A stretch of 64,000 nt of DNA from Armatimonadota bacterium (lineage in GTDB: Bacteria; Sysuimicrobiota; Sysuimicrobiia; Sysuimicrobiales; Sysuimicrobiaceae), in the NCBI GenBank assembly GCA_031432545.1, contig JAVKGX010000005.1, forward strand, positions 62,001 to 126,000. Direction: 5' to 3'. Of the stretch, positions 40,309 to 44,897 are shown piece after piece. The notes below the pieces were generated by a model that worked only from the letters and a program-made list of their open reading frames with translations, was not told the origin of the DNA and searched no databases. The translations under genes were made by a program, and so were the position numbers. Position 1 is the stretch's first letter; each line of letters starts with the position of its first letter.

Positions 40309-41625
40309 ATGACCGGGGCCTGGCTGGTCGTCCTGTTCTTGATCTCCGTCAACGCGTTGTATGTGCTGGCGGAGTTTGCGGCCGTGAGCGTCCGCCGGAC
40401 CCAGGTCCGCCGGTTGGCAGAGCAGGGCAACCGGCTGGCCGCCATGCTGCTGTCCGTCGTGGAGGATCGCCGCGCCCTGGACACGTACGTGGCGGCGTGC
40501 CAGATCGGCATCACGTGGTCGAGCCTGGTACTGGGGGCCTACGGCCAGGCGACGCTGGCGCCCCGCGTCGCACCGCTGTTCGAGAGCTGGGGCGGGTTGC
40601 AGCAGGCCGCCGCCCACTCCACTTCGGCGGTGGTCGTGCTCGTTGGGCTCACGGCCCTGCAGGTCGTCCTCGGCGAACTCGTGCCCAAGTCGGCCGCCCT
40701 GCAGCACCCCACGCCCTCCGCCCTGTATACCGCGCTGCCCATGCGGTGGTCCCTGGCCGCCTACGCGTGGTTCATCCGTCTGCTCAACGGCAGCGCGTGG
40801 GCCGTGTTGCGCCTGCTGGGGATGGCGTCGACCGGCCACCGGCACATCCACTCGCCGGATGAGATCGAGCTGCTGATCGCGCAAAGCCGCGACGCGGGGC
40901 TGCTGGAGCCTGACGAGCACGACCGGCTGCGCCGGGCGCTGCGGCTGGCCCGGCGGCCGGTGCGGCAGTTGATGGTCCCCCGGCCCCAGATGGTCGCCCT
41001 CGATCTGACTGCGCCGGCCGACGAACTGGTGGACCGCGTCCTGACCGCTCCGTACACGCGGCTGCCTGCCTACGAGGGGTCGATCGACAGGGTCGTGGGC
41101 GTCCTGCACACCAAGGACTTCGCGTTGTGCTGGCTGGACGGCGCAGACGCCGCGTCCGTCCGCGCGTCGCTGCGGCCGCCCCTGTTCGTTCCCGAGAGCA
41201 TGACGGCCGACCGGGTCCTGGCGCGGCTGCGGGAGGGGCGCAGCCACATGGCCATCGTGCTGGACGAGTTCGGCGGCGTGGCGGGGTTGGTGACGGTCGA
41301 AGACGTCCTCGGGGAGGTGCTGGGCGAGGTGGGCGACGAGTTCCACGCGCCCGAGCCCGCCCCCGAGCCGATGCCCGACGGACGCGTGCGGTTGCCCGGG
41401 CGGATGCCTCTCGACGAGGCCGAAGCGTGGCTGGGCACCCGATGGGAAGGCGAGTCCGAGACAGTCGGCGGACTGGTCGTCGAGACCCTCGGACGGGTGC
41501 CGGTGGCGGGCGAGCGCGTGAACGTGCGGGGCGTGGACGTCGAGGTGGAGCGCGTCGCGGGCCACGCCGTGCTGTCGGTCTTGGCGACCCCTCTGCGGCC
41601 GGACGGCGGAGGAGAGGATGGATAG
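40309..41625 (+). CDS. CNNM/CorC-family transporter with CBS pair (copy 1)
   Basis: The 438-residue membrane protein has an N-terminal CNNM (DUF21) domain of four helices, residues 1-190 (AEFAAVSVRRTQVRRLAEQG, LVLGAYG, VVLGELVPKSAALQ). Two CBS domains follow, about 205-330 (RQLMVPRPQMVALD, then FGGVAGLVTVEDVLGEVLG). A CorC_HlyC domain (RVRLPGRMPLDEAEAWL) ends it. The family is linked to magnesium or divalent-cation export. It is the first of two overlapping paralogues. Confidence 0.9.
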   Translation: MTGAWLVVLFLISVNALYVLAEFAAVSVRRTQVRRLAEQGNRLAAMLLSVVEDRRALDTYVAACQIGITWSSLVLGAYGQATLAPRVAPLFESWGGLQQAAAHSTSAVVVLVGLTALQVVLGELVPKSAALQHPTPSALYTALPMRWSLAAYAWFIRLLNGSAWAVLRLLGMASTGHRHIHSPDEIELLIAQSRDAGLLEPDEHDRLRRALRLARRPVRQLMVPRPQMVALDLTAPADELVDRVLTAPYTRLPAYEGSIDRVVGVLHTKDFALCWLDGADAASVRASLRPPLFVPESMTADRVLARLREGRSHMAIVLDEFGGVAGLVTVEDVLGEVLGEVGDEFHAPEPAPEPMPDGRVRLPGRMPLDEAEAWLGTRWEGESETVGGLVVETLGRVPVAGERVNVRGVDVEVERVAGHAVLSVLATPLRPDGGGEDG

Positions 41626-42931
41626 CTGGACCCCAGTGGCCGTCATCGCCGGTCTGATCCTGCTCAACGGCGTGTTCGTCGCCGCGGAGTTTGCCATCGT
41701 CGGTGCTCCCCGCGCTCGCATCCAGTACCGCGCCGCGCTCGGGCACCGTCTGGCGCGCCGGGTGTGGGACGTACTGCAGGACCCGCAGCGGCAGGATCGC
41801 TACGTGGCCACCGCCCAATTGGGCATCACCTTCGCCAGCATCGGGCTGGGCATGTACGGCGAGCATGTCGTCGCCGACTGGCTCGCCGAGGTGTTCGGAT
41901 CGCTGGGTGCCGGGCGCTGGATCGCCGCCCACACAGTGGGCAGCGCGACGGCGGTGGTCCTGCTGACCTACCTGCACATCGTGCTGGGCGAGATGGTCCC
42001 CAAGGCTCTGGCGTTGCAGCGCGCCGAGCAGACGGCCTACTGGGTCACGCCGTTGATGGGGTGGCTTCGGACGGCCCTGTATCCGCTTGTGGCAGGATTG
42101 AACGGCGCGGGCAACAGCGTCCTCCGACTGCTGGGCATCCGACGGCAGGCGGCGACGCATCACTACTACACACCGGAGGAGCTGCTGTATGTCGTGCAGG
42201 AGAGCGCAGAGGGCGGGGTGCTGCAGCGTGAGTCGGGGAGGATGCTGCGGGAGTTGTTCGAGTTCGGAGACCGCACGGCGGCCGAGGTGATGGTGCCGCG
42301 GGTGCGCATCGTCGGGATCCCGATCGGTGCCACGTCCCAGGAGATTTCCGCGATCCTCCGCGCCCAGCCACATACCCGCTACCCGGTGTATCGGGGTGAC
42401 CTCGACCACGTGGTGGGCATGGTCCACATCAAGGATCTGCTGCGGCTGTACGGCGGGCGCCGATCGCTGGAACTGCCGGATGTGCGGTCTGTGCCGTTCG
42501 TACCGCAGACGGCGACCCTGACGGCCGTGTTGGCGGCGATGCGCCGGGCGCGCACGCAGATCGCGATCGTCATCGACGAGCACGGGGGTACTTCGGGGCT
42601 CGTGACGGTCGAGGATCTGTTCGAGGAGGTTGTGGGCGATATCGAGGAATCGGGAGGGCGGCGTCCGGACATCTACGAGGACGACACCGGACGCGTGCGC
42701 GCGGCGGGAACGGCGAGGCTGGACGAAGTCGGCGAGCGCTTCGGGCGAGTGCTGGAGCACGAAGAGGTGGACACCGTCAGCGGTCTGGTGCTGGCGCTGC
42801 TCGGCCGGCCACCGGCGGTCGGTGATGCGGTCACCTACGACGGGCTGCGATTTGAAGTCCTGGCCGTCAAGGGGTACGGTGTGGAAGAGTGCGCGATACG
42901 ACGCGTGGACGCAGAGGAGGGTTCGCGTTGA
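41618..42931 (+). CDS. CNNM/CorC-family transporter with CBS pair (copy 2)
   Basis: The 437-residue paralogue has the same order: CNNM domain 1-190 (AAEFAIVGAPRARIQYRAA, HIVLGEMVPKALAL), CBS pair 205-335 (RTAAEVMVPRVRIVGI, HGGTSGLVTVEDLFEEVVGDI) and CorC_HlyC tail (VRAAGTARLDEVGERFG). It overlaps copy 1 by 8 nt, and its TGA overlaps the TTG start of the MetE-like gene. The pair could work as a heterodimer, as CNNM proteins are dimeric. Confidence 0.9.
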   Translation: MDSWTPVAVIAGLILLNGVFVAAEFAIVGAPRARIQYRAALGHRLARRVWDVLQDPQRQDRYVATAQLGITFASIGLGMYGEHVVADWLAEVFGSLGAGRWIAAHTVGSATAVVLLTYLHIVLGEMVPKALALQRAEQTAYWVTPLMGWLRTALYPLVAGLNGAGNSVLRLLGIRRQAATHHYYTPEELLYVVQESAEGGVLQRESGRMLRELFEFGDRTAAEVMVPRVRIVGIPIGATSQEISAILRAQPHTRYPVYRGDLDHVVGMVHIKDLLRLYGGRRSLELPDVRSVPFVPQTATLTAVLAAMRRARTQIAIVIDEHGGTSGLVTVEDLFEEVVGDIEESGGRRPDIYEDDTGRVRAAGTARLDEVGERFGRVLEHEEVDTVSGLVLALLGRPPAVGDAVTYDGLRFEVLAVKGYGVEECAIRRVDAEEGSR

Positions 42932-43908
42932 TCACGACGGTTGTCGGCAGTTACCCGAAGGTTCCGGATCTGCCAGCTCCCGGCAAATGGCGCACCGGGG
43001 CGGAGAAGCTGCAGCGCGGCCAGATCACCCCCGAGGCCTTTCGGGCGATCGAGGACGAGGTGACGCGGGAGGTGATCGCGGAGCAGGTCGAAGCGGGTCT
43101 GGATTTGATCACCGACGGCCAGATCCGGTGGGAGGACGGTCAGACCTACTTCGCGCGGCGGATGGGGGGCTTTTCGATCGACGGCCTGCAGCGGTGGTTC
43201 GACACGAATGTCTACTACCGGGAGCCGGTGTGCGAGGGCGAGGTCACCTGGCGGGAGCCGATCACCGTCGAGGACTACCGGTTCGCGGTCTCGTCCAGCC
43301 CTCGGCCGGTCAAGCCGGTGGTGACCGGGCCGTACACGATCGCGCGCCTGAGCCAGAACCGCCACTACCCGACGTTTGCTGAGTTCGTGCTCGCGCTGGC
43401 GCGTACGTTGAACCGTGAACTCCACGCGCTGGCCGCCGAACGTCCGTCGTGGATCCAGGTCGACGAGCCGGCCATCACCCAGTACAAACCTGACTTTCCG
43501 CTATTCCGGGACGCGATGGCGGTTCTGGTCGAAGGCGTCGACGCGCCGCTGGCGCTGTACACGTACTTTGGCGACGTGGCCGGGATCTACCCGCAGATCC
43601 TCGATTTGCCCTTCGGTCTGATCGGACTGGACTTCGTTGCCGGCCACCGCAACTGGGAGGTGGTCCAAGACGCCCGGTTCCCGGACGACCGGGTTTTGGG
43701 TTTCGGGATCCTCGACGCGCGCAATACGCGCATGGAGACCGTCGACGAGGTACGGGCGGCGCTGGACCGGGTGGCGAAGATCGTGCCGCTCGACCGCCTC
43801 CACCTCAGTCCCAGCGCCGGACTGGAGTTCCTGCCCCGCCGGGTGGCCAGGGCGAAGATCGCGCGGATCGCCGAAGTCAAGCGCGTCGTCGAGGGGGTGA
43901 CCGCATGA
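42928..43908 (+). CDS. MetE N-terminal-barrel-like protein (separate gene)
   Basis: The 326-residue protein is one TIM-barrel of the cobalamin-independent methionine synthase superfamily. TYFGDVAGIYPQILDLP, GLDFVAGHRN, LGFGILDARN and LSPSAGLEF match the N-terminal barrel of full MetE. WIQVDEPAI is also present. It lacks the His/Cys zinc ligands seen in the neighbour (positions read TYFGD and SPSAG). So it probably does not bind homocysteine zinc itself; it may bind folate or assist the next protein. A TTG with GAGGAGGG upstream overlaps the CNNM stop. Confidence 0.8.
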   Translation: MITTVVGSYPKVPDLPAPGKWRTGAEKLQRGQITPEAFRAIEDEVTREVIAEQVEAGLDLITDGQIRWEDGQTYFARRMGGFSIDGLQRWFDTNVYYREPVCEGEVTWREPITVEDYRFAVSSSPRPVKPVVTGPYTIARLSQNRHYPTFAEFVLALARTLNRELHALAAERPSWIQVDEPAITQYKPDFPLFRDAMAVLVEGVDAPLALYTYFGDVAGIYPQILDLPFGLIGLDFVAGHRNWEVVQDARFPDDRVLGFGILDARNTRMETVDEVRAALDRVAKIVPLDRLHLSPSAGLEFLPRRVARAKIARIAEVKRVVEGVTA

Positions 43909-44897
43909 GCGCGCTGCCGCTGTTCCCGACGACCACCGTCGGGTCGTTCCCCAAGCCGCCGTACCTCCTGGAGGCGCGCCGCAGGCGCCTGCGTGGGCAG
44001 GCCGACCCCGACGAACTCCGCGATCTGGAACGCCGCGCCACACGGGAGTGGATCGAGCGCCAGATGGCGCTGGGGATCGACATCCTGGTCGACGGCGAGA
44101 TGTACCGCGGCGACATGGTGGCGTTCTTCGCCGACGAGATGGAAGGCTTCGAGATCGCCGGATTGGTGCGGTCGTACGGCAATCGGTTCTACCCGAAGCC
44201 GGTGGTGACGGGTCCGGTGGGGCGGCGACGGCCCATCACCGTCGAGTGGTTCCGCTATGCCCAGTCTCTGACCGATCGGCCGGTCAAGGGCATGCTCACC
44301 GGGCCGTACACGATCGCGGAATGGTCGTTCAACGAGTACTACCCGACACGGCGCGCGCTCGTCATGGAGCTCGCACGCGCGATCCACGAGGAGGCGGTGG
44401 ACCTGGAGCGCGCGGGTGCGCGCTTCATCCAGATCGACGAGCCCGCCATCCACACGCGCCCAGACGAGGACTTCGCGCTGGCGGCCGAAGCGATGGAGAT
44501 CGTGACTGACGGCCTGGGTGCTTACACGATCACCCACATCTGCTACGGGGACGTTCCGCGGATCTATCCCGCGATGCTAAAGCTGGCGGTGAATCAGATC
44601 GACCTGGCGCTCAAGAACGAGGAGTTCGCGCTGCTGGAGACGTTCAGGCAGCACCCCTTCACCCGTGACATCGGGCTGGGTGTTGTGGACGCCCACTCGC
44701 ACCGGGTCGAGTCGGTCGAGGAGATCGCGCAAGGCATCCGGCTCGCCTTGGAGGTATTCGAGCCGCGCCAGATCTGCGTCTCGCCCGACTGCGGTCTGAA
44801 GACGCGGACGACGGAGGAGACGGTGGCCAAGCTGCGCGCGATGGTCACGGCCGCCGGGCTCGTCCGCGCGGAGGTCGCACGCGGGGTGGGGGCGTAG
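43905..44897 (+). CDS. MetE C-terminal-barrel (catalytic) protein, cobalamin-independent methionine synthase-like
   Basis: The 330-residue barrel holds the catalytic zinc set of MetE: His and Cys in THICYGD, a Glu in the following strand region (KNEEFALLE) and Cys in SPDCGLKTR. TTTVGSFPKP, KGMLTGPYTI and QIDEPAIHTRP are typical MetE C-barrel marks. It should transfer a methyl group to homocysteine. The methyl donor is unclear: methyl-tetrahydrofolate or another. It overlaps the zinc-less partner by 4 nt, so the two are very likely used as a pair. Confidence 0.87.
   Translation: MSALPLFPTTTVGSFPKPPYLLEARRRRLRGQADPDELRDLERRATREWIERQMALGIDILVDGEMYRGDMVAFFADEMEGFEIAGLVRSYGNRFYPKPVVTGPVGRRRPITVEWFRYAQSLTDRPVKGMLTGPYTIAEWSFNEYYPTRRALVMELARAIHEEAVDLERAGARFIQIDEPAIHTRPDEDFALAAEAMEIVTDGLGAYTITHICYGDVPRIYPAMLKLAVNQIDLALKNEEFALLETFRQHPFTRDIGLGVVDAHSHRVESVEEIAQGIRLALEVFEPRQICVSPDCGLKTRTTEETVAKLRAMVTAAGLVRAEVARGVGA

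Follow-up and report, generated by a model that had tools for sequence, protein, structure and literature searches.

A probable split cobalamin-independent methionine synthase with an altered zinc site in a bacterium of the Armatimonadota

Two overlapping genes within a window of 64,000 nucleotides from an Armatimonadota bacterium (assembly GCA_031432545.1, contig JAVKGX010000005.1, positions 62,001 to 126,000 of the forward strand) very probably encode a cobalamin-independent methionine synthase (MetE) that is split into two subunits. The first gene, P1 (42928..43908; TTG start), corresponds to the N-terminal barrel of the enzyme, and the second, P2 (43905..44897; ATG start), to the catalytic barrel, which binds zinc and homocysteine; both, and all features described below, are on the plus strand. 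Encoding MetE by two genes is an arrangement of a known kind, mainly from archaea. The new element is a repeated exchange, in which the glutamate ligand of the zinc is replaced by alanine and a histidine (His183 of P2) is present elsewhere in the same barrel.

Glutamate loss at the zinc site and the accompanying His183

Two things are unusual about the zinc of MetE: all four of its ligands come from the protein, and it parts from one of them, a glutamate, when homocysteine binds. In the enzyme from Thermotoga maritima, the numbering of which is used throughout, the ligands are His618, Cys620, Glu642, and Cys704, and Glu642 leaves the zinc when homocysteine binds at the opposite face (PMC539065). 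The equivalents in P2 are His211 and Cys213 (codons at 44535..44543), Ala235 (44607..44609), and Cys296 (44790..44792), the histidine and both cysteines being invariant in the alignment. Thus, the catalytic His-Cys-Glu-Cys set that the original prediction had assigned to P2 is wrong at the glutamate column, and P2 does not conform to the canonical MetE zinc site. Alanine was present at this position in P2 and in all 26 scored catalytic subunits of its lineage; His-Cys-Glu-Cys was found in every fused MetE C half (46/46).

The zinc site was surveyed in 190 catalytic domains. Alanine occupied the Glu642 column in 40 of them (hereafter Ala types), 26 from the phylum of the window and 14 from one clade in the order of genome G224, which is Sulfolobales-like as judged by its neighbor L048. 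All 40 Ala types carried histidine at the position of P2 residue 183, compared with none of the other 150 domains; besides Ala235, His183 is the sole P2 column that matches the Ala type perfectly. Elsewhere, this position is occupied by arginine or lysine in fused MetE and mostly by serine, threonine, proline, alanine, or leucine in other split subunits. His183 (codon at 44451..44453) is located in the motif QIDEPAIH, five residues past the homocysteine-binding aspartate Asp178 (44436..44438; invariant in the alignment), which is equivalent to Asp577, the ligand of the homocysteine amine (PMC539065). The equivalents of Ser411, Glu462, Asp577, His618, Cys620, and Cys704 were retained in all Ala types, both of the window lineage (26/26) and of the archaeal clade (14/14).

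In an unrooted tree of 97 catalytic domains, from which the two swapped columns and one neighbor of each had been removed, the Ala types formed two well-supported clades with many Glu types between them, and a single origin of the Ala/His type was rejected by the approximately unbiased (AU) test on the same columns (p 1.3e-49). The double change from glutamate to alanine and to His183 arose at least twice, once in the phylum of the window and once in the Sulfolobales-like clade. As there are only two independent events, the strength of this observation comes from an identical double change without exceptions and not from how many sequences show it. Neither this change nor the zinc site of Sulfolobus MetE was found reported in the literature searched, which mostly did not include subscription papers. 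The loss of the glutamate on two occasions, each time with the same new histidine, constitutes a natural experiment on whether the glutamate-driven movement of the zinc is needed for catalysis. It also means that His-Cys-Glu-Cys is not usable as a requirement in the annotation of methionine synthases.

Because of this covariation, and because His183 is placed just past strand β4, at the barrel end shared with the other ligands, it appears somewhat more probable than the opposite that His183 is a direct zinc ligand in place of the glutamate. A less likely, although not negligible, explanation is that the enzyme is a split MetE in which the protein contributes three zinc ligands, water or homocysteine completing the site, while the role of His183 is in the second shell, for instance in deprotonating homocysteine or tuning the charge. 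A three-ligand site is workable, given that Glu642 leaves the zinc on homocysteine binding and that BHMT has leucine there (PMC539065), and His183 comes after the very residue that binds the homocysteine amine. However, strict pairing of glutamate loss with the same residue in two lineages is what would be expected of a ligand exchange, even if a second-shell role predicts pairing as well.

Two other ways of compensating for the lost glutamate were considered and rejected. An acidic ligand relocated to just past Ala235 (in the sequence NEE) was present neither in L029 nor in the archaeal Ala types, and a contribution from the N subunit found no counterpart in P1, none of whose columns matched the Ala type perfectly (the best reached 27/27 vs 7/59). 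Separately, the catalytic subunits of L143 and L144, which belong to the archaeal phylum of L048, contained serine at the Glu642 position and no histidine at that of P2 residue 183; in L143, the last cysteine is apparently absent in the alignment as well.

Assignment of the two barrels

As originally predicted, P1 and P2 are overlapping open reading frames of 326 and 330 amino acids on the same strand; they share the four nucleotides ATGA (43905..43908), in which the stop codon of P1 overlaps the start codon of P2, and translational coupling of the two via this overlap is likely. A stop and a start thus separate the two genes, which is at variance with fused MetE (one chain of ∼750 amino acids with both barrels), and each is within the size of split MetE subunits (two genes of at most 400 amino acids with one barrel apiece, usually adjacent).

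P2 was matched by Pfam Meth_synt_2 with 276.6 bits. For P1, the same family scored slightly higher (115.7 bits) than Meth_synt_1 (100.6 bits), and P1 therefore does not pass the filter of Meth_synt_1 exceeding Meth_synt_2 that had been applied to N subunits in the description of split MetE (PMC7857596). This is a search filter, and its authors concede that real members such as AMET1_0515 are lost by it (PMC7857596); it is not treated here as defining for split MetE. With profiles of the fused MetE halves and of archaeal split subunits, built in the present analysis, P1 scored higher as an N barrel (fused, 125.5 bits for N and 93.7 for C; archaeal, 329.1 and 263.8) and P2 as a C barrel (fused, 42.7 for N and 267.3 for C; archaeal, 255.5 and 390.0). 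In an unrooted tree of 80 barrels, comprising the halves of fused MetE and the archaeal and bacterial split subunits, every N barrel was separated from every C barrel with a support of 100/99, P1 falling on the N side and P2 on the C side. The original assignment of P1 as N type and P2 as C type was thereby borne out, P1 being no C-barrel-only match despite its marginally higher Meth_synt_2 score; that the two might be recent paralogs of each other is ruled out by the same separation.

The motifs quoted for both proteins in the original prediction were all found, and P1 indeed lacks the zinc ligands, with Tyr211, Tyr213, Asp235, and Ala297 at the respective positions. Tyr211 and Tyr213 (43558..43566) replace His618 and Cys620; tyrosine for Cys620 and aspartate for Glu642 are the very substitutions to which the inactivity of the N barrel in fused MetE has been ascribed (PMC539065). 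The two genes are accordingly not recent copies of one another. A further difference lies in the motif RWFDTNVY of P1 (43192..43215), where Arg89 and Tyr96 align with Lys104 and His111, which are present in all fused N halves; split N subunits have arginine or lysine at the first position and tyrosine, phenylalanine, or once leucine at the second. As His111 has been proposed to be a proton donor (PMC539065), acid catalysis may differ across all split MetE.

Both proteins were modeled by AlphaFold with high confidence (pLDDT of 93 for both, 93.1 for P1). The model of P2 could be superimposed on the C barrel of T. maritima MetE (residues 395-733) with a Z-score of 41.3 at 1.7 Å. That of P1 resembled an N barrel (Z 37.8), the single-barrel structure 3rpd (37.4), and further C and N barrels (35.8) to such similar degrees that comparison of the models alone does not assign P1 to either type. 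Catalytic subunits of split MetE are recognized by a score of at least 200 bits by phmmer to Pyrococcus furiosus PF1269; in place of PF1269 itself, five of its Thermococcaceae orthologs were compared with P2 and scored 209.8-220.1 bits.

The original prediction had placed the novelty of the pair in the domain identity of the two split genes. This arrangement was, however, already described as split MetE in 2021 by Price, Deutschbauer, and Arkin, mainly from archaea (P. furiosus PF1268/PF1269, Halobacteria, and Thermoprotei) and from Sulfobacillus, and the PF1268 and PF1269 subunits form a complex (PMC7857596). The pair shares with these systems the adjacent single-barrel genes in the order N then C, the N subunit without zinc ligands, the zinc/homocysteine barrel, and the lack of a fused MetE in the genome, but differs from them in having alanine for the zinc ligand glutamate together with His183. 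With fused MetE (T. maritima, PDB 1xdj and 1xpg) it has in common both barrels, of which the N barrel is disabled, the homocysteine residues, and Trp539; it differs by consisting of two chains and by lacking Glu642, Glu583, and, with Arg89 and Tyr96 in their place, Lys104 and His111. The homocysteine barrels of BHMT and MetH likewise activate homocysteine by zinc without a glutamate ligand (leucine in BHMT; PMC539065), but via a Cys3 site elsewhere in the barrel, and the fold match is distant (Z about 16 for P2 to MetH).

Gene context, methyl donor, and proposed mechanism

The N-barrel family was matched in 34 of the 43 genomes of the window's phylum, and in most of them the catalytic barrel adjoined it in the order N then C, which speaks against a chance association. 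Outside the phylum, a split-type catalytic subunit was found in at least 14 of about 297 genomes (∼5%; 16 including partial ones; sample of 340 genomes), again with an adjoining N subunit in most of the loci fetched. In five genomes of the phylum (G007, G011, G013, G016, and G022), the pair is preceded by a gene for a bifunctional homocysteine S-methyltransferase/methylenetetrahydrofolate reductase (MTHFR), in the order fusion-P1-P2; the corresponding model, NF006396, matched the fusion gene of the window's own genome (G000) with 738.9 bits. The fusion gene is linked to split MetE in the same way in bacterium GMC4 (L044) and L261, and the order P1-P2-fusion in L253 and L256. Counting L265-L267, L269, and L271 as well, the NF006396 gene is linked to the pair, on one side or the other, in several groups of bacteria.

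CoFeSP genes (PF03599, AcsC/AcsD) were not matched in G000 and are absent also from most carriers of the pair. Four genomes of genus g7 (G010, G023, G029, and G032) have CoFeSP genes and MTHFR and no split MetE. The linkage to the MTHFR fusion and this distribution of CoFeSP favor methyl-folate over a corrinoid donor, and methyl-folate or another methyl-pterin is quite probably the methyl donor. They bear at the same time on the notion that P2 belongs with the core methionine synthases of the MesB or a similar type and receives the methyl group from a corrinoid protein, with P1 as an accessory barrel. The best NCBIfam model of P2, the single-barrel PRK04326, would fit this notion (401.8 bits, under the cut-off of 406), and the core synthases MesA, MesB, MesC, and MesD share with P2 the single zinc/homocysteine barrel. 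However, they have no N-barrel partner and do not use methyl-folate, MesB being tied to CoFeSP and MesD to MesX (DUF1852) (PMC7857596), whereas the partner of P2 is conserved and linked to MTHFR, CoFeSP is absent as described, and the equivalents of the folate-contacting Trp539 and Arg493 are kept in P2 and its relatives (26/26). P2 being such a core synthase is therefore highly improbable.

No less improbable is that the P2 site is dead or repurposed, alanine at residue 235 precluding the zinc of a methionine synthase, and that methionine is made by the fusion protein instead. A fusion gene of the right kind is present in G000, where it provides the sole PF02574 match. Yet no other zinc or homocysteine residue varies among the 40 Ala types, both subunits are retained across the lineage, and the fusion gene is linked to the pair and not replaced by it. 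The only PF01717 matches in G000 are the two genes of the pair, which represents the only known methionine synthase of this genome; the fusion's own activity is putative.

Most likely, P1 and P2 would associate as a heterodimer, facing each other as the two barrels do in MetE. Zinc and homocysteine would be bound by P2, and methyl-tetrahydrofolate supplied by MTHFR would sit in the inter-barrel cleft, closed by P1. In place of the glutamate that holds the resting zinc opposite homocysteine, which is Ala235 in P2, His183 would step in from just past β4; the zinc would then most likely be bound by His183, His211, Cys213, and Cys296, with His183 perhaps being displaced by homocysteine. Alternatively, within the same scheme, His183 could replace the glutamate as partner in homocysteine activation. 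In the window lineage, the homocysteine residues (Ser411, Glu462, and Asp577) and the folate residues (Trp539, Asp467, and Arg493) are kept in 26/26 subunits, and His672 in 24/26. As a whole, a split MetE heterodimer using methyl-folate at a His183 variant zinc site is the explanation we consider fairly probable.

Three observations weigh against it. His183 is adjacent to the equivalent of Asp577, which binds the homocysteine amine, and may therefore sit on the substrate side, away from the position of the glutamate. The pterin of fused MetE is held by Glu583, for which P2, like most split subunits without this glutamate, has another residue (Thr184), and pterin binding must consequently differ from that of fused MetE; this replacement and that of Lys104/His111 by Arg89/Tyr96 are general to split MetE. 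Finally, the fusion gene of G000 is located on contig C21, away from the pair.

Relation to fused MetE and gene neighborhood

The original prediction had left open whether the pair is an ancestral, unfused form or a secondary split. In the 97-domain tree, the 28 C halves of fused MetE formed one clade (100/100) with the split subunits outside, and a secondary split of the fused enzymes sampled is thus not supported. The fused C halves joined the bacterial split C subunits, with the archaeal ones excluded, both in the 80-barrel tree (100/99) and in the 97-domain tree (100/98), which sets the window's subunits, as part of this bacterial clade, apart from archaeal split MetE. The C-half relation would fit if, among unfused forms, the bacterial split pairs were the closest to fused MetE, and it speaks against a recent secondary split. 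For the fused N halves, a sister relation to the bacterial N subunits was disfavored by the AU test (p 0.008), a result not relied on because of the long branch. The N halves, with their long branches, do not mirror the relation of the C halves. With bacterial split pairs at hand whose catalytic subunits join the fused catalytic half, the order of duplication and fusion becomes testable. A more comprehensive scenario can be offered tentatively, in which the fourth ligand would have moved from a glutamate past β6 to a histidine past β4 independently in a bacterial phylum and an archaeal clade, the zinc might reside on the homocysteine side at rest, without the inversion of its geometry that sets MetE apart, and no unfused form would be closer to the fused enzyme than the bacterial pairs.

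A second split pair was observed in genomes of family f5, within the phylum of the window (L090, 2142-3338; L091, 2245-3375). It has His-Cys-Glu-Cys, and both its subunits group with archaeal (Bathyarchaeota/Thermoproteota-like) sequences; one phylum thus harbors two unrelated types of split MetE, with transfer probably being the source.

The genome containing the window comprises 2.19 Mb, its near relatives being bacterium HR32, several "Armatimonadetes" metagenome genomes, and "Terrabacteria group bacterium ANGP1"; its phylum is probably Candidatus Sysuimicrobiota. Directly 5′ of P1, two tandem genes encode CNNM/CorC-HlyC-type membrane proteins (40309-42931); the stop codon of the second overlaps the TTG start of P1 within the sequence TTGA, with AGGAGG a few bases upstream. 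Downstream of the pair, genes for a polyketide-cyclase-fold protein, a solute-binding protein, and a histidine kinase are located.
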